A DNA stretch of 22,639 bases, from positions 1 through 22,639 of the IMG/VR virus record IMGVR_UViG_3300030430_000273; one strand, 5' to 3'. The stretch's first letter is position 1, and every line of letters begins with the position of its first letter. The DNA comes from a virus. Shown piece after piece: positions 13,984 through 22,639 of this stretch. Under the pieces are notes generated by a model that made no database searches, had not been told where the DNA came from, and was given only the letters and a program-made list of their open reading frames with translations. Position numbers and translations under genes: made by a program.

Positions 13984-15999
13984 TTATCTTACAAATCCTA
14001 AGTTTTCTGACAACAGACCGCCTCTAAATCTTAAATCGTCTATATTTTGCCTTCTAATTTCTGGGTCAAAAGCACTTTGCATAGTTGATGATGGGTCACT
14101 TGTTAAACCGTAAACACTGCCCCTAGTTGCACCTAAATTTATAGTGCTTGCAGTTTTTTCTAAAAAGTTTTGCAGACGTCTTGCGCCACTTCTATCATTT
14201 AATATAGACCTTATAAAAGCTGGGTCTTGGCTTGTTAATATTTCAGCAACTTGCCTTTTTTGTGGCTCTGTTAAACCTGGCATATTTCTGTTTAATATTT
14301 TCATTCCTAATTGGAAAAGACCTTGCAAATTAAAATCACCAAATCCGATAATGTTAGCTTGTTGCTGTGACGCACCTAATTTAGCTGCTGTGTCTGAACC
14401 ACCTGTTAATTCATTTAATGTTTCTTGCGCAAGTTTTGCAAAATCTGCTGTTCGCAAAAATTCTTCAAATTTATCTGCACCAAACACTCTTCTTAATGCT
14501 TTATTCTCTGCTCTATCATCATCTGTTATTCTTTTAATGTATGACGTTGGGCTGTCTTGTAATTGAGGGCGTAACTTACGCAGCACACCCATTTTAAATG
14601 CCGCGATAGCTTCTGGATTATTAAGTAACTCTAATGTGTCCATTTCAATATCAATTAGATCAGCGTCAAGTTTACCTGTTTTCCAAATTTTTTGACCTAA
14701 TTTAAACGCACTATCTTGATCCATCAAAGAACTATATTTTGCTCTTGCATTTTTAGTTGCGTCACTAACACCATCTATGATCGCTCTTAAATCTTTTTCA
14801 ACTGTTCCAACAGCTTGACTAGCTGTTTGAAAGTTTGTTTTTTCTGCAAGATTATCTACACTTTCAGCAATAGTTCTTCTTAATAATTCTGCTTCTTCTA
14901 TTGTTGGCATACGGTCTATTGTAACAACGCCATCTTTATCTACACTGAAAAATTTAGTTTTTTCTCTAGCTTCTGCAATAATATCAAATCCTTGAAACCC
15001 TTGCGTTGCTCTTTTTGATCTTTGTAAAATTGACCTTAATTCGTTTCTAAACTGATCAGGTAAAGCTCCTTGCGCAAAACCCTTACTATACAAACCTGAA
15101 ATTTCGTCTTTCATTGCATCAAATTTTGCAAATTGTTTTTTAAGTAAGTTTTGATTAACACCGCCACCTAATATTTCTGACGCTTCAGTTGTAACTGCGG
15201 TTTGAGCCGTTTTTGTTCTTGCTGGCAATTCTGTTTTAAATACAGCATTTGCTTGTGGGCTTTTCATGTAACCTTTAGCCATTTCTCTTATAGTTACATT
15301 ATCCGCAAGTATTTTACCGTCTAAAACCATTTGTACGGCTTCATCTTCTGTCAACCCTGCATCTCGTGCGTTTTGTTGAATAACTGCCTCGACTTGACCA
15401 CCTACATTATTACCAAGCTTAACTCTTAAAAAATCATAAAAACCTAACGTCAAAGGTTTTAACAATCTGCCAGCCACATCGACTGCGCCAGCCGTTCCTA
15501 CGCCTATAGCCGTACCTGTAGCCCCACCAGTAGCACGATCAATCATGTCACCTTCAGAACCCATATAGCCTGTAACACCGCCTTGCACTCCACCTATACC
15601 TAGCATTTGTAAAAACGAGCTTGGGTTTTTAAAACCTAAACCTTTAGCTATTGCACTTATAAGTGGCCTAGAAGCAGCAGTAGCAGCAACACCTGAACTA
15701 CCGCCTGTAAAGGGTGATGCAGCGACAGCAGCTACGACAGGAGCAACTGCACCTCCAGCTTCATAAACTAAACTTTCGCCTGGATATGCCGCTTGATAAT
15801 CTTTAATAGATTGTTGTATTTCTTTTAAAGTTTCCTCATAACCTTTATCGTTTACCATACTTCTAAAAAAAGCTTCTACCTCATCAGCAGATTGAAAAGT
15901 CAAACCTTGTAAAAAAGTTCGTGTTTTTTGTTTAGGAACCTCGGTAGAGACAATATTACCCTTTGCGTCGGAAACTAATTTATCCCAATTTGTACTCAT
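13984..15999 (-). CDS. Internal virion / DNA-ejection protein with glycine-zipper segment
   Basis: A 671-residue protein. Residues about 75-178 are a long hydrophobic region packed with Gly and Ala (AGGAVAPVVAAVAASPFTGG, then QMLGIGGVQGGVTGYMG and ATGGATGTAIGVGTAGAVDV), the type of glycine-zipper segment that inserts in membranes. The remainder is helical and charged with few cysteines. Large proteins of this kind encoded next to a transglycosylase are ejected ahead of the DNA in podoviruses to build a channel across the cell envelope. It overlaps the transglycosylase gene by 4 bases. The ejection role is inferred from architecture and context; no specific family was recognised. Confidence 0.68.
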   Translation of the reverse strand: MSTNWDKLVSDAKGNIVSTEVPKQKTRTFLQGLTFQSADEVEAFFRSMVNDKGYEETLKEIQQSIKDYQAAYPGESLVYEAGGAVAPVVAAVAASPFTGGSSGVAATAASRPLISAIAKGLGFKNPSSFLQMLGIGGVQGGVTGYMGSEGDMIDRATGGATGTAIGVGTAGAVDVAGRLLKPLTLGFYDFLRVKLGNNVGGQVEAVIQQNARDAGLTEDEAVQMVLDGKILADNVTIREMAKGYMKSPQANAVFKTELPARTKTAQTAVTTEASEILGGGVNQNLLKKQFAKFDAMKDEISGLYSKGFAQGALPDQFRNELRSILQRSKRATQGFQGFDIIAEAREKTKFFSVDKDGVVTIDRMPTIEEAELLRRTIAESVDNLAEKTNFQTASQAVGTVEKDLRAIIDGVSDATKNARAKYSSLMDQDSAFKLGQKIWKTGKLDADLIDIEMDTLELLNNPEAIAAFKMGVLRKLRPQLQDSPTSYIKRITDDDRAENKALRRVFGADKFEEFLRTADFAKLAQETLNELTGGSDTAAKLGASQQQANIIGFGDFNLQGLFQLGMKILNRNMPGLTEPQKRQVAEILTSQDPAFIRSILNDRSGARRLQNFLEKTASTINLGATRGSVYGLTSDPSSTMQSAFDPEIRRQNIDDLRFRGGLLSENLGFVR

Positions 16000-17351
16000 C
16001 CTGGTATTTCCCCTGTCCTAGCATACTCAATTTTTTCTTCTGGTGTTAAACCGTTCCAAATTGTTATCCAAATATTTGTTGCCTCTGTAAAATTAGCACT
16101 TCTTTCTCTTATTGGTGCTGGCACAGGTGGTAAATCATCTGGTTTGTCTATTACAGGTTCGTCAGGACTTGTAAAAATACTCTCTACATCTCTAGCTTCT
16201 GGCGCATTGATTGACGTCAAATATTGCTCATCAATCCCTGCTGCTTTTGCTAAATTCACAACTTGTTCTCTCGCCGATATAGCTTCGGCTCTAGTTTTGC
16301 CGTAAGCATTATTAGCTATTGCAAATATTTCTTCCCGAACAGGAGTAGGCAATGATTGACCGCCTTCTGTGGCGTTTCTAAACCGTTGGATTATACTTTT
16401 TACTTGACCGCCTGTATTTGCAATCGCAGCTTGCTCACTGTCTCTAACAACAGAACCAGGATCAAGAATTTTTGCAAAAGCAATAGTTAACGCATAGTCA
16501 CTAACGCCACCAGGATTATCGAAAGCATAAAGCATTGTCTCATAACCTGATCTTGCCTCATTCAACGCTTTTATAGCATCAAGACTATTTAAATCTTTGT
16601 TTGTTTTTTGGATCATATCGTATTGCGTTTTGCTAAGAGTGCCAGGCACTAGACCACCTTCTCTTGCCGCTTTTTGATATTCTGTAAACATTTGCGTTGG
16701 ATCTGCGCCTCGCCTTATCATATCAGCGTAAGGTTTACCGCCAGGTAATTTTTCAAGTTGGTCTGCCGTTGTGTTTCTGTTAGATAGAGCTACTTGTCTA
16801 GCGCCCTTGTCTCTTATAGCTTGCCCCATGCGTTGCTCTTGTGGCAGTAACGCATCTAAAGCTTGTGCAATATTGCCAAATCCTGTCAATCCAGTAATAG
16901 GATCTCGTTGTCTCATTCTTTGCATCATAGGCAAATTTGTCAGTGGATTTAAGCTCATGTTTTTATTCCTTGGCTCTTGATACGTTCCTAGTATATTTCT
17001 AACATAATTTTGCGTTTCTTTAAATGGGGGTATGCCTCCGTATTTATCTACGTTACCCATCCCAGCGTTGTAAGCCGCTAAAGCAAAAGGCATATTGCCT
17101 GGGTATCTATCCATCATTTGCCGTAAATATTGCGCACCACCAAATATATTTTCTCTAATGTCTCTAGGATTAACACCTAACTCTTGTGCTGTAGAAGGTA
17201 ATAATTGAGTTAATCCTATAGCACCTTTTGGAGAAACAGCATCAGGATTAAAATTACTTTCTTGCTGTATTAGACGAAGAAAAGTGTTTAAGGGTATCCC
17301 ATATTGAGATGCCGCCCTACGTGCTAATTCTTCTATCTCATTTCTTTGCAT
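15996..17351 (-). CDS. Virion-associated lytic transglycosylase
   Basis: A 451-residue protein. Residues about 1-125 form an SLT (lysozyme-like) domain: YGIPLNTFLRLIQQESNFNP with catalytic Glu31, SPKGAIGLTQLLPSTAQELG, then FALAAYNAGMGNVDKYGG and TQNYVRNIL. It cleaves glycan strands of peptidoglycan. The remaining 325 residues are helical with a proline-rich segment near 395-410 (PDDLPPVPAPI), suggesting a structural partner role as in T7 gp16 or other ejected proteins. There is no signal peptide, and it lies among virion genes, so it acts at infection rather than at lysis. It shares one base with the previous stop and 4 with the next start. Confidence 0.85.
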   Translation of the reverse strand: MQRNEIEELARRAASQYGIPLNTFLRLIQQESNFNPDAVSPKGAIGLTQLLPSTAQELGVNPRDIRENIFGGAQYLRQMMDRYPGNMPFALAAYNAGMGNVDKYGGIPPFKETQNYVRNILGTYQEPRNKNMSLNPLTNLPMMQRMRQRDPITGLTGFGNIAQALDALLPQEQRMGQAIRDKGARQVALSNRNTTADQLEKLPGGKPYADMIRRGADPTQMFTEYQKAAREGGLVPGTLSKTQYDMIQKTNKDLNSLDAIKALNEARSGYETMLYAFDNPGGVSDYALTIAFAKILDPGSVVRDSEQAAIANTGGQVKSIIQRFRNATEGGQSLPTPVREEIFAIANNAYGKTRAEAISAREQVVNLAKAAGIDEQYLTSINAPEARDVESIFTSPDEPVIDKPDDLPPVPAPIRERSANFTEATNIWITIWNGLTPEEKIEYARTGEIPG

Positions 17352-18804: not shown

Positions 18805-19152
18805 CTAGTATGTAGACAATGCTACCCTTTTCCAAATTGCTGTACTGCCATCATGTGCAGCCGTACAAATATAAATATAATTAGTATCCCAAGCTATCAT
18901 GCCAGCCCCATCACCAACCGCACCAACACTAGAGCTAGGTGTAGTTTGTTTCATAGCAACTTGCTTAAAAGCGTTTTGCGCCGACACAACAGGATAATTT
19001 TTATCGTCATCCCACAAAAATATACCGTTCTCGCTAGGATTATCATCACTTGTTTTAAAATATAACTTACCTAAGTTTCTGCTTAGAAACAGATTTAGTT
19101 GTCTACCCCACTGCCTTACATCTTCGCCTAAAATTGGTGGTGTTACTGGCAT
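18805..19152 (-). CDS. Small tail-associated protein
   Basis: A 115-residue protein. The N-terminus (PILGEDVRQWGRQLNLFLSR) is helical; the C-terminal half reads TPSSSVGAVGDGAGMIAWDT, followed by NYIYICTAAHDGSTAIWKRV. The segment 'GDxxGxIAxDxxYIYxCxAxYDGxxxIWKRVxL' is a common beta-rich module at the end of phage tail-fibre and tail-spike related proteins. It shares one base with the upstream tail hub gene, so it is probably a tail component. Its exact role is unknown. Confidence 0.65.
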   Translation of the reverse strand: MPVTPPILGEDVRQWGRQLNLFLSRNLGKLYFKTSDDNPSENGIFLWDDDKNYPVVSAQNAFKQVAMKQTTPSSSVGAVGDGAGMIAWDTNYIYICTAAHDGSTAIWKRVALSTY

Positions 19153-22100
19153 TATCGCCTACCCCCTGCTTTAACTTCCAATCTCATTACACCAACACGC
19201 CAATCTGTAGCTTGATCCCCCTCAACACGCATTTTTAACTGTCTACCAGTAAAACGCAAAGAAGTAGGGTTGCTAGGATTGAATGGACCAAAAGTCCTTT
19301 CAGTGTCGTTAGGATTAAACTTAGTTTTAAATTTTAAATCTACATCACCCTGCGTTTTTTCATCAGTTATAACCTCAGTGACTTTTGCAACCTGATCACC
19401 GTTGCCAATACTTACTGGCCCTGTTTCGCAAAAAATAGAAGAACCTTCATAATTAAAACCTATCTCATGGTTCATTATATCTGTCTTTGTGCCGTGTTTA
19501 GCCATAAATGGATATGCAAAAACACCACGGCTTACACCAGATGTTCTTGATAGATTACCAATAAGCCAATGATTATCTTTAAAATCATACGCAACATAAC
19601 GGTCTATTTCTGTAGAATTAGCAGAACAATAAAACCACCAAATTTCGTTGTTTGCGCCATTAACCATTCCCCACACTTTTGATTGTTGAGCTTGGTTAAA
19701 ATCATTAAATACATAATCTTGAACATCGCAATTTAGTGTCTGTACGCTGTTACCATCGAAGTAATGAAAATTCTCTTGACCATACCAAAATGCACCTTGA
19801 TCAGTTGCTACCGCACTTAATCTCGATACTGCTCCACAGTTGGTTCCTACACGCTGAAAAGAGTAAACATAAGGTGGAGCAATGTACTGTGCCATGTGAG
19901 CATCTGTATCAGTAATGATTAACGTAACGCCTCTTGTCCTAACACCGCACATAATCTGACCACTTGTGGCAAGCTCTATATCTCCTGCCTCATTCGTTGC
20001 GGCTGGTGTCCACTGCGTGTTGTTTTCTTTATCACACCACTGCACTTTACGACTATTGCCACCAGCGCCTAATGCAAAAATAAATCGCTCCTCTGTAACA
20101 ACTATTCCTTTATTGTTTATAGGTGCGTTTGCTATTGGTTCAGCAACCGTCTTTTTTCTTAAAGAAATGTTATCAATGTCAAAATTAGGCGTGTTGTAAG
20201 CTTGCGGTATTATTTCTATTTTCACAGCCGTATCATCTGCGCCAAATCTAAATATATTTGAGCCAACGGCTAATGTTTCATGAACAAGAACTGTTGTGCT
20301 TGTTGTACCAGTTACTTTAATTTTGACGTTAGGCACAGTTGCAGTATTACTGTCATCGTTTGGATCAATTAAGTCTACAGTGACATCATAGCTGTCTTGA
20401 GCATCAGGCGTTGCAACTAAACCGCTTGCTGTTTGATCTAAATTACCAAAGTTAACTCTTTGTAATTGGTGCGTAGAACCAATGTCCTGTCTAAGAACAT
20501 GGCTTGACCCAATATCTAAATCAAAAGAATGATTTGTTCCTAACGATCCACCAGCGTCCGTTAGGTTGATTGCAGAACCGCCAGATGTAGCCGACAACTT
20601 AAATGTATTCGTTGTTGCCGATATTACAAAATAATTTGTTCCTGTTGTTAAACCACCTATATTTGTGCCGCCACCGTTAGAGTAGGTTACTTCGTTACCA
20701 TTTGATAACCCATGATTATTTATAGTTATTGTTTCCGTACTATAATCTATAGGCCCACCACCAACAGCTACAGTTGTAATGCTATTACCCATACCAGCAC
20801 CATGAATTGAACACAGATATGTCAAACCAGTTGCAGGAGCATTTGCTGGTACTGCAAAGGTTACACTTGCGCCTGACGTTCCTGCCGTTCCTGTTGTGGT
20901 AATTCCTGTGGTATAGCTTGAACCACCATTTGCAAATACTAACGGATGACCACTATTAGAGTTGTCGCTTAGATCAAAAGTATAAGTTGTGCCTCTTATT
21001 AAAGTTATAGCTGGCGCAGTAACACCATCAAAATGAAATTTGTTAACACCGCCTACGTTAGCAACCGTTACCGTTACTGAAGTTGGACTAGTAGAAATAC
21101 CGTTTGGATCAAACGCAACATTTAAATCAGCCGTTAAATCAATAGCACTACCCCCAGAAGTAGCCGCTAGTTGAAACTCTGAACTTGAAGCATTCACAAT
21201 AAAATAATTTTGGTTGTTTACTAAGCCACCAATATCTGTTCCAGAGCCATTAGAATAACTAACTTCATCACCATTAGTAAATGTATTTGATACAACAATT
21301 TTATTGTTTGTTGTGTCTTTTACAGAATTATTGTCAGCATCAAAAGTAACTTGCTTGTTTGCTGAGATATTTATGGCAGAGCCACCACTTGTTGCAGATA
21401 ACTTAAAAGTGTTTGTTGTTGCAGAAACTATAAAATAATTAGTTCCACTTGTTAGCCCATCTATAGCTACTTGCCCACTTGGAACAACATAAGTAACTTC
21501 ATCATTGTTAACAAAATTGTGACCATTAATTGTAATCGTATCATTTGCCACATCAACAATAGTTGTATTATTCGCATCAAACGAAGGCTTGTATTGAGCA
21601 TACTCAGCAACACCACCAGAGATTGACCAATTAGTTCCTTTATTCCAGTTAGCGTCAGATGCAAATGCACCATTAGTAACTAACTCAGCGCCAACAGTTG
21701 TTGTTAAGTTCCACTCAAAAATACGTCCATCATCTTGATGTAAGGCTACTAAGTTTTGACCAAAATTATCGAGCTGCCAAGTTGTAGCTTCTTGCGGAAC
21801 ACTATCGGTTGTAACCGCTCTTGGCTGACCATAATAACCAGTACCATAAAACCCAAAACCATAACCAGTATTTACTGCCGCATCTTCACGTCCAGCCGCT
21901 AAATCATCTGGCGTTAAATCATAACAAATCCCTGCACCTGTCATTGCTATTAACTGATCATGTGATCCACCAGCAAGCCAAGCTGTGCCGTCATTTGCTT
22001 GCCATGAGTGCATACCCCTGACAGGATTATTTGCAAAAGCCGCTTTCCGTGTTGTCCAACCACCTATTGGTTTTAAACTACCGTCAAGCCAACGAACAAG

Positions 22101-22187
22101 ACTACCGTCACGCCATCGGTTACTAGCCTCAAACTCAGTGCCGTTTCTGTAAAATCCTGCTGGTAATTTTATAGGAACTAAAGCCAT
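19152..22187 (-). CDS. Giant tail hub-like protein with nested inserted domains
   Basis: A 1011-residue protein. Residues 1-166 (VPIKLPAGFYRNGTEFEASN, RWRDGSLVRWLDGSLKPIGG) and 679-1011 (INNKGIVVTEERFIFALGAG, later WGMVNGANNEIWWFYCSANS) together form a beta-rich tail protein of about 500 residues, of the hub or DNA-stabilisation type (P22 gp10-like position) common in marine podoviruses. Inserted at 167-200 and 561-678 is a split jelly-roll resembling a carbohydrate-binding module (LVTNGAFASDANWNKGTNWS, then FDIDNISLRKK). That is interrupted by three repeats of about 75 residues and a cupredoxin-like domain (371-475). The start shares a base with the previous stop (TAATG). Hub identity is from memory of family patterns; the domain layout is read directly. 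Confidence 0.72.
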   Translation of the reverse strand: MALVPIKLPAGFYRNGTEFEASNRWRDGSLVRWLDGSLKPIGGWTTRKAAFANNPVRGMHSWQANDGTAWLAGGSHDQLIAMTGAGICYDLTPDDLAAGREDAAVNTGYGFGFYGTGYYGQPRAVTTDSVPQEATTWQLDNFGQNLVALHQDDGRIFEWNLTTTVGAELVTNGAFASDANWNKGTNWSISGGVAEYAQYKPSFDANNTTIVDVANDTITINGHNFVNNDEVTYVVPSGQVAIDGLTSGTNYFIVSATTNTFKLSATSGGSAINISANKQVTFDADNNSVKDTTNNKIVVSNTFTNGDEVSYSNGSGTDIGGLVNNQNYFIVNASSSEFQLAATSGGSAIDLTADLNVAFDPNGISTSPTSVTVTVANVGGVNKFHFDGVTAPAITLIRGTTYTFDLSDNSNSGHPLVFANGGSSYTTGITTTGTAGTSGASVTFAVPANAPATGLTYLCSIHGAGMGNSITTVAVGGGPIDYSTETITINNHGLSNGNEVTYSNGGGTNIGGLTTGTNYFVISATTNTFKLSATSGGSAINLTDAGGSLGTNHSFDLDIGSSHVLRQDIGSTHQLQRVNFGNLDQTASGLVATPDAQDSYDVTVDLIDPNDDSNTATVPNVKIKVTGTTSTTVLVHETLAVGSNIFRFGADDTAVKIEIIPQAYNTPNFDIDNISLRKKTVAEPIANAPINNKGIVVTEERFIFALGAGGNSRKVQWCDKENNTQWTPAATNEAGDIELATSGQIMCGVRTRGVTLIITDTDAHMAQYIAPPYVYSFQRVGTNCGAVSRLSAVATDQGAFWYGQENFHYFDGNSVQTLNCDVQDYVFNDFNQAQQSKVWGMVNGANNEIWWFYCSANSTEIDRYVAYDFKDNHWLIGNLSRTSGVSRGVFAYPFMAKHGTKTDIMNHEIGFNYEGSSIFCETGPVSIGNGDQVAKVTEVITDEKTQGDVDLKFKTKFNPNDTERTFGPFNPSNPTSLRFTGRQLKMRVEGDQATDWRVGVMRLEVKAGGRR
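20526..20750 (-). repeat. Tail hub repeat 3
   Basis: Encodes residues 480-554 (TITINNHGLSNGNEVTYSNG, GLTTGTNYFVISATTNTFKL, SATSGGSAINL). The stretch SATTNTFKLSATSGGSAIN is identical to that in repeat 1. It follows the cupredoxin domain. Confidence 0.75.
20763..21077 (-). other. Cupredoxin-like domain within the tail hub protein
   Basis: Encodes residues 371-475. Strand-rich sequence (VNKFHFDGVTAPAITLIRGT, TYTFDLSDNSNSGHPLVFAN) is followed by ASVTFAVPANAPATGLTYLC and SIHGAGMGNSI. His414, Cys459, His462 and Met466 (C-x2-H-x3-M) occupy the places of the four ligands of a type 1 copper site as in plastocyanin-type cupredoxins. Similar domains occur in virion proteins of marine phages, but their metal binding is not established to my knowledge. 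Confidence 0.65.
21114..21344 (-). repeat. Tail hub repeat 2
   Basis: Encodes residues 282-358 (FDADNNSVKDTTNNKIVVSN, GDEVSYSNGSGTDIGGLVNN, QNYFIVNASSSEFQLAATSG). It aligns with repeats 1 and 3 along its full length with no gaps of note but is more diverged. Confidence 0.7.
21345..21581 (-). repeat. Tail hub repeat 1
   Basis: Encodes residues 203-281 (FDANNTTIVDVANDTITING, NDEVTYVVPSGQVAIDGLTS, GTNYFIVSATTNTFKLSATS). The unit pattern is FDxxN, TITI, NxDEVxYxxGxGxxIxGL, then NYFIVxAxxxxFxLxATSGGSAI. Confidence 0.75.
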
Positions 22188-22639
22188 TATGTTGTTGCTC
22201 CGTAAATTGTACCACTATTATTTAGAGTGTATGAGTTTCCGCTATCTTCTATAGCCTTGCCTCCTGCACCGCCCTGACATTGGTGACTCGCAGAAGCAAA
22301 AGTTCCTCGGTAACCTTTACCACCAGCAGCACCCCAGCCACCACCACCACCAGCTTTACCTGTATTACCACCAGAGCCACCGTTTGAACCAGCGTTACCT
22401 CCAACACCTGGGGCTACAAAGAACGAGTTAACTCCAGAAACAATTACGCCTGGAAGTATACGGCCTCCACCGCCGCCACCGCCTGATCTTTGGTCTTCAC
22501 TAGCTGAACCGTTACCATAACCTCCTGCTTGACCGCCTGGAGCAGAATTTATTCCTGCTACACCACTGGGAACAATATATTGAGATCCTGCTGCATTTAA
22601 TGCACCACCTGATCCTCCGTTATTACCAGTGCCAACGCC
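22187..22639 (-). CDS. Glycine-rich tail fibre or adhesin tip, C-terminal part
   Basis: The last 150 codons of a gene that enters from the right edge. It is very rich in glycine: GGSGGALNAAGSQYIVPSG, then a run of seven Gly, VIVSGVNSFFVAPGVGGNAG, AGGGGGWGAAGGKGYRGT and the end SGNSYTLNNSGTIYGATT. Glycine-rich segments with 'GGGGGWGAxGG' followed by 'GGAGGKAI...GNSYTLNNxGTIYGA' are typical of the host-binding tips of phage tail fibres, where polyglycine strands pack as a stack and the loops between them vary (gp38-type adhesins). Its stop overlaps the tail hub ATG by one base. The fold is inferred from sequence pattern. Confidence 0.7.
   Translation of the reverse strand, partial: GVGTGNNGGSGGALNAAGSQYIVPSGVAGINSAPGGQAGGYGNGSASEDQRSGGGGGGGRILPGVIVSGVNSFFVAPGVGGNAGSNGGSGGNTGKAGGGGGWGAAGGKGYRGTFASASHQCQGGAGGKAIEDSGNSYTLNNSGTIYGATT

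Follow-up and report, generated by a model that had tools for sequence, protein, structure and literature searches.

The tail nozzle protein of a viral contig of 22,639 bases, which in its entirety forms the window analysed here and comes from a short-tailed marine bacteriophage, carries a domain at residues 371-475 that almost certainly adopts a cupredoxin fold, the fold of the blue copper proteins that serve cells as electron carriers. The explanation we favour, which we hold to be somewhat better than an even chance, is a copper-binding cupredoxin in an insertion of the nozzle, where it would serve as an exposed host-contact module at the tail tip, swapped among virion proteins.

A tail nozzle protein with an inserted cupredoxin domain

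The carrier of the domain was described as tail hub-like in the initial annotation. A tail protein it is, but profile and Foldseek matches to solved nozzles identify it as the nozzle, not a hub, of a podovirus tail, with a core homologous to the solved nozzles of Pseudomonas phage Pa223 and Vibrio phage VP1. The family phrog_3287 (virion structural protein) matched the protein at 2e-68. A sequence profile of the core matched the solved nozzles 9nwi_Y (3.7e-22), 8zkm_E (4.1e-15) and 8zkk_O (6.9e-15), with the proteins of Pa223 (E 3.7e-22) and VP1 (about 4e-15) among those recognised. Fold matches of the core in Foldseek were the nozzles of SU10, Pa223, VP1, cyanophage A4, P22 gp10 and T7, and the podovirus nozzles of SU10, Pa223, VP1, P22 (gp10) and T7 (gp12) are homologous or structurally similar to it. 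Genes close to that of the nozzle code for portal, scaffold and major head proteins, as well as for tail or internal virion proteins that bear a transglycosylase. The parts of the carrier are as follows.

19152..22187, minus strand: tail nozzle protein of 1011 aa, carrier of the domain (open reading frame; phrog_3287; profile and Foldseek matches to nozzles)
21693..22187, minus strand: N-terminal part of the nozzle core, residues 1-165 (conserved in relatives whether or not they have the insertion)
20157..21692, minus strand: insertion of about 510 aa, residues 166-677 (absent from 45 of 85 full-length relatives)
21330..21575, minus strand: repeat unit 1, residues 205-286 (45-56% identity to units 2 and 3)
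21090..21329, minus strand: repeat unit 2, residues 287-366 (related to units 1 and 3)
20763..21077, minus strand: cupredoxin domain, residues 371-475 (AlphaFold2, Foldseek against the PDB, hhalign to the plastocyanin-type family)
20502..20750, minus strand: repeat unit 3, residues 480-562, C-terminal of the cupredoxin (related to units 1 and 2)
19155..20156, minus strand: C-terminal part of the nozzle core, residues 678-1011 (best phrog_3287 stretch, 678-1011; nozzle profile match)

Several neighbouring features were also recorded. A 451-aa protein at 15996-17351 has a transglycosylase/lytic tail domain (phrog_669, phrog_2013) and is probably a lysin of the tail or of the virion interior. The open frame immediately upstream of the nozzle gene (22187-22639) is Gly-rich, has no family match and runs off the end of the window. 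This nozzle protein is also encoded in contigs filed as Euryarchaeota and Flavobacteriaceae MAGs, which are probably misbinned phage contigs.

Inside the insertion, three related units of about 75 aa each lie alongside the cupredoxin. The insertion was compared across 85 full-length nozzle relatives, a set that includes overlapping fetches of identical contigs. It is missing from 45 of them, whose proteins are about 490-511 aa long, and three others have an insertion of roughly 400 aa at the same residue (~165) that lacks a cupredoxin, i.e., other cargo in the same slot. All remaining relatives have an insertion with one or two cupredoxins, always at residue about 165. Since more than half of the relatives do without it, the cupredoxin insertion is an optional module of the nozzle. 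In a full-length AlphaFold model the insertion point comes after 8-11 core strands, a place that may correspond to the gap between propeller blades 2 and 3 used in SU10. The cupredoxin itself has low confidence in this model (pLDDT 55-70), probably because the underlying alignment holds few copies of it, and the model is too weak to place the domain relative to the tail axis. The edges of the insertion (residues 166-200 and 560-680; 20148-21692) look by eye as if a single jelly roll of the carbohydrate-binding kind had been divided in two by the repeats and the cupredoxin; they have no Pfam match.

The domain was then modelled separately by AlphaFold2 with 51 relatives. The model has a mean pLDDT of 89 (about 96 in the core) and nine strands, in keeping with a Greek-key beta-sandwich of 7-8 or more strands, and it bears out the cupredoxin strand pattern proposed for these residues from the sequence. 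His414 stands just ahead of a strand, Cys459 closes the next-to-last strand, His462 lies in the loop after the Cys strand, and Met466 is within the last strand. When the model was compared with known structures by Foldseek, the best 50 PDB matches listed were all cupredoxins (rusticyanin, copper nitrite reductase and multicopper oxidases/CueO), and no other fold appeared among them. Rusticyanin matched with E 6e-5 and copper nitrite reductase with TM 0.59-0.62; TM-scores against solved cupredoxins were modest (0.45-0.62), with an rmsd of several angstroms. Among viral predicted structures, many marine phage structural proteins matched, including those of S-TIM5, P-SSM2 and P-TIM68 (E down to 9e-12, TM up to 0.76).

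Ligand conservation and family placement

Residues 371-475 correspond exactly to positions 20763..21077, and the four proposed ligands and their spacing, C-x2-H-x3-M, were confirmed at the codons below; each was followed by position check and column conservation.

20946..20948, minus strand: codon of His414, the first ligand
20811..20813, minus strand: codon of Cys459, a ligand
20802..20804, minus strand: codon of His462, the second His ligand
20790..20792, minus strand: codon of Met466, the axial ligand

The His-Cys-His order, with Cys and the second His in one C-terminal loop and an axial Met, is that of cupredoxins. Among 20,000 shuffled versions of the nozzle protein, 0.4% contained C-x2-H-x(2-4)-M and 0.25% the complete pattern of four ligands. 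Because shuffled protein can yield the pattern at this rate, the motif alone is suggestive and not decisive, and conservation carries more weight. An alignment of 52 relatives showed no variation in any of the four ligand columns. In a larger collection, His, Cys and His were each kept in 203 of 204 distinct near-complete relatives, and Met in 205 of 205 sequences including the query. Two of the relative sets were gathered with search patterns that covered ligands (His414 and His462/Met466 in one, His414 in the other), so the conservation of those residues is overstated there. A pattern set from viral contigs touched no Cys, His or Met, and a tblastn set, which agrees with the others, used no pattern at all. 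The tblastn search of phage records, made without motif selection, found the complete set in 25 of 27 loci, the two incomplete ones being cyanophage PSS2, in which ligands are lost, and a locus cut by the record end. The ligand loop was C-x2-H-x2-M in 109 sequences of the large set, x3 in 94 and x1 in one; x4 occurred once, in Sf-CH1b of the tblastn set.

Homologs that had lost Cys and both His were looked for, and PSS2 gp080 was the only one among the 204 distinct relatives. Its His, Cys and His are replaced together by Asp, Ala and Thr, and on its sequence it is a natural apo (ligand-less) form of the family. Joint loss of three ligands is what a single metal site predicts, which suggests that the residues act as one site. 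The gene encodes a stand-alone protein of 112 aa beside the tape-measure genes and is annotated as a baseplate wedge subunit. At six cyanomyovirus structural-protein loci, an intact cupredoxin is accompanied by another copy that is degenerate and seems to be interrupted. Among close relatives the domain had a median pN/pS of 0.26, compared with 0.14-0.15 in the nozzle core; the domain is thus under purifying selection but less constrained than the core. Intact ligands had been taken as a sign against a mere relic, and the invariance described above agrees with that view. We consider a functional metal site in the domain very probable.

To place the family, PF00127 proteins gathered from bacterial genomes were made into a template profile for hhalign. 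The phage domain family aligned to this plastocyanin-type profile with a probability of 93.3% (E 2.7e-7 for one comparison; score 42; 79 columns), in a register that puts His414, Cys459, His462 and Met466 onto the four plastocyanin copper ligands. Column-permuted controls (59) scored at most 15 and the reversed control 12. Limiting the template to C-x2-H-x(2-4)-M sequences raised the score to 47 (probability range 93-95%). A Pfam search of the window domain gave no match; 5 of the 52 relatives match PF00127 Copper-bind weakly, and the highest score of any relative was 17.9 bits against a cut-off of 21.2. A single-sequence PDB search of the query returned nothing significant, with plastocyanin as the top match at E 0.24 only. 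Since it scores below the curated cut-off, the family does not belong to PF00127 as Pfam itself draws the line, but is a divergent family of cupredoxins.

The plastocyanin/azurin family (PF00127, including amicyanin-like proteins) and the phage domain share a fold class and the ligand order His...Cys-x2-His-xn-Met, whereas only 1 of 69 proteins in the PF00127 sample has the loop of the window domain, C-x2-H-x3-M. In plastocyanin the first His is followed by Asn, and Pro stands at C+2. The phage domain shows the reverse: 195 of 202 countable relatives have Pro directly behind the first His, and none has it at C+2. Judged from these residues, the phage site is plausible, though it does not reproduce the second shell of plastocyanin. 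PF00127 proteins are free periplasmic carriers, while the phage domain is embedded in virion proteins. The best structural matches, rusticyanin and the CueO type 1 domains, differ in that the phage domain is without other copper centres or the oxidase motif HCH, and its ligand loop is shorter. With multicopper oxidases the phage family shares a Pro directly after the His of the type 1 site, visible for the oxidases in the hhalign sample as HPMHLHG.

These details bear on whether the domain is a redox-active cupredoxin that exchanges electrons with, or docks onto, a redox protein of the host envelope, thereby sensing or setting off attachment or DNA release. The complete His-Cys-His-Met set with amicyanin- to plastocyanin-like loops (C-x2-H-x2 to x4-M) favours such a role, as does Pro after the first His, found likewise at the sampled multicopper-oxidase type 1 sites; with this Pro and none at C+2, one backbone NH could bond the thiolate. 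However, the hosts differ widely (cyanobacteria, SAR11 and OM43), and it is not evident what would supply electrons to a particle that lacks a metabolism. We regard this role as quite improbable, and give electron transfer by a virion domain about the same small chance.

Homologs of the domain in the phages P-HM1, P-HM2 and MED4-213 are annotated as immunoglobulin-like, and the ligand motif could then have arisen by chance. Record notes cite PF07686, UniProt names M4QD42 an immunoglobulin-domain protein, and a profile search of the PDB gave weak matches to antibody chains and an Fc receptor through a YYC motif. Against this, no Ig family is among the best 50 PDB fold matches listed, Pfam gives the same P-HM1 and P-HM2 proteins a weak Copper-bind match and not V-set, and the four invariant ligand columns of the 52 sequences and the hhalign result both contradict it. 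The combination of a Pfam match and an Ig fold that defines the V-set (PF07686) was not found. We therefore consider an Ig-like domain extremely unlikely. The antibody and Fc receptor matches were rejected as convergence on the YYC motif, the fold search listing no Ig protein. The Ig-annotated P-HM1 protein also holds a subtilisin-like peptidase. The annotation of a domain unnamed in Pfam, and called immunoglobulin in three phage genomes, is hereby corrected.

Spread of the domain among marine phages

The window phage is not alone in having the domain, which is frequent among virion proteins of marine phages and is found in certain surface proteins of marine bacteria as well. It was present in 55 of 50,697 phage records, whose named hosts or sources are all marine, with carriers among phages of Synechococcus, Prochlorococcus, SAR11 and OM43 and in seawater phage records. 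Viral contigs contained at least 555 relatives, and a search of plasmids found none. The carriers are unrelated proteins: a protein encoded next to the portal (S-TIM5), tail fibres, the gp7 baseplate wedge, the stand-alone gene of PSS2 and a subtilisin-like protein. Most likely, the domain is one of several interchangeable modules swapped among marine phage virion proteins. Ig-like domains on phage virions are likewise small beta-sandwiches that have been exchanged between virion proteins unrelated to each other, but they have another fold, and conserved metal ligands are a feature of the cupredoxin module. No description of this virion cupredoxin was found in the open-licence literature, which is no proof of absence; the fold is known, and its use as a widespread, ligand-intact virion module is undescribed in the literature found.

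Cyanophages carry plastocyanin (petE) as an auxiliary metabolic gene (PMC2984593, PMC3037559), which is likewise a cupredoxin in marine phages. petE, however, is a free-standing copy of a host photosynthesis gene, whereas the domain described here lies inside structural proteins and also occurs in phages of non-photosynthetic hosts. In bacteria, five loci in Candidatus Actinomarina genomes encode short proteins that end in this cupredoxin, one with an N-terminal hydrophobic signal-like stretch, a Cys and a Thr-rich linker; these proteins may be a cellular lipoprotein source of the phage module. Five loci in SAR86 genomes code for proteins that are about 2650 aa long unless truncated by the contig, with one domain copy and a lipobox-like start. 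SAR86, Actinomarina and Bacteroidetes copies form clades of their own.

Some carriers hold tandem cupredoxin copies, and the domain is frequently placed among spacer-like repeats. Both features fit a purely structural metal cap, in which copper, zinc or another metal steadies a spacer exposed to seawater with no contact or redox role, and PSS2 gp080 is still recognisable as a family member after ligand loss. Stability alone, however, seldom needs all four type 1 ligands, and the axial Met is invariant (205/205). We judge this reading unlikely.

Trace metals are scarce in seawater, and iron in phage tails has been proposed to be carried to the host, the Ferrojan Horse idea. The wide occurrence of the domain in marine phages would suit a parallel role in copper capture or protection, in which it scavenges copper or brings it to the host. 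Type 1 sites, however, hold copper tightly and are poor transporters, and no genetic link to copper uptake was seen within the window. Copper capture is very unlikely in our estimate.

Probable copper binding and a possible host contact at the tail tip

We return to a copper-binding, host-contacting module in the nozzle. In the proposed mechanism, a cupredoxin with the complete His-Cys-His-Met set is inserted, together with repeats of about 75 aa, into a podovirus nozzle. The invariant ligand set speaks for a requirement for a metal, most likely copper, and copper binding would stabilise a rigid, exposed beta-sandwich at the tail tip. Copper is likely to be bound in the natural particle. The SU10 nozzle has four Ig-like domains between its propeller blades, which straighten toward the cell at genome release (PMC9509320). 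It is thus another nozzle with inserted beta-sandwich domains, although the SU10 insertions are described as Ig-like, whereas the insertion here consists of repeats and a cupredoxin with metal ligands. By this analogy the nozzle insertion would sit at the distal tip, and we infer that position for the domain. There it may act in adhesion or docking. Surface contact is proposed because of modular swapping, tandem copies and exposed carriers; resting as it does on modular spread and analogy, such a role for the domain has, in our view, a chance a little short of even.

A broader proposal is that marine phage particles are copper proteins whose widespread type 1 domains dock on, or exchange electrons with, the host envelope, making attachment or DNA release copper- or redox-dependent; we consider it improbable, slightly less so than the redox role alone. 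If copper is bound, highly abundant viruses, the phages of Prochlorococcus, Synechococcus, SAR11 and OM43, bear a metal cofactor on the particle. Infection would then be linked to seawater copper chemistry, and the site would offer a spectroscopic handle on virions.
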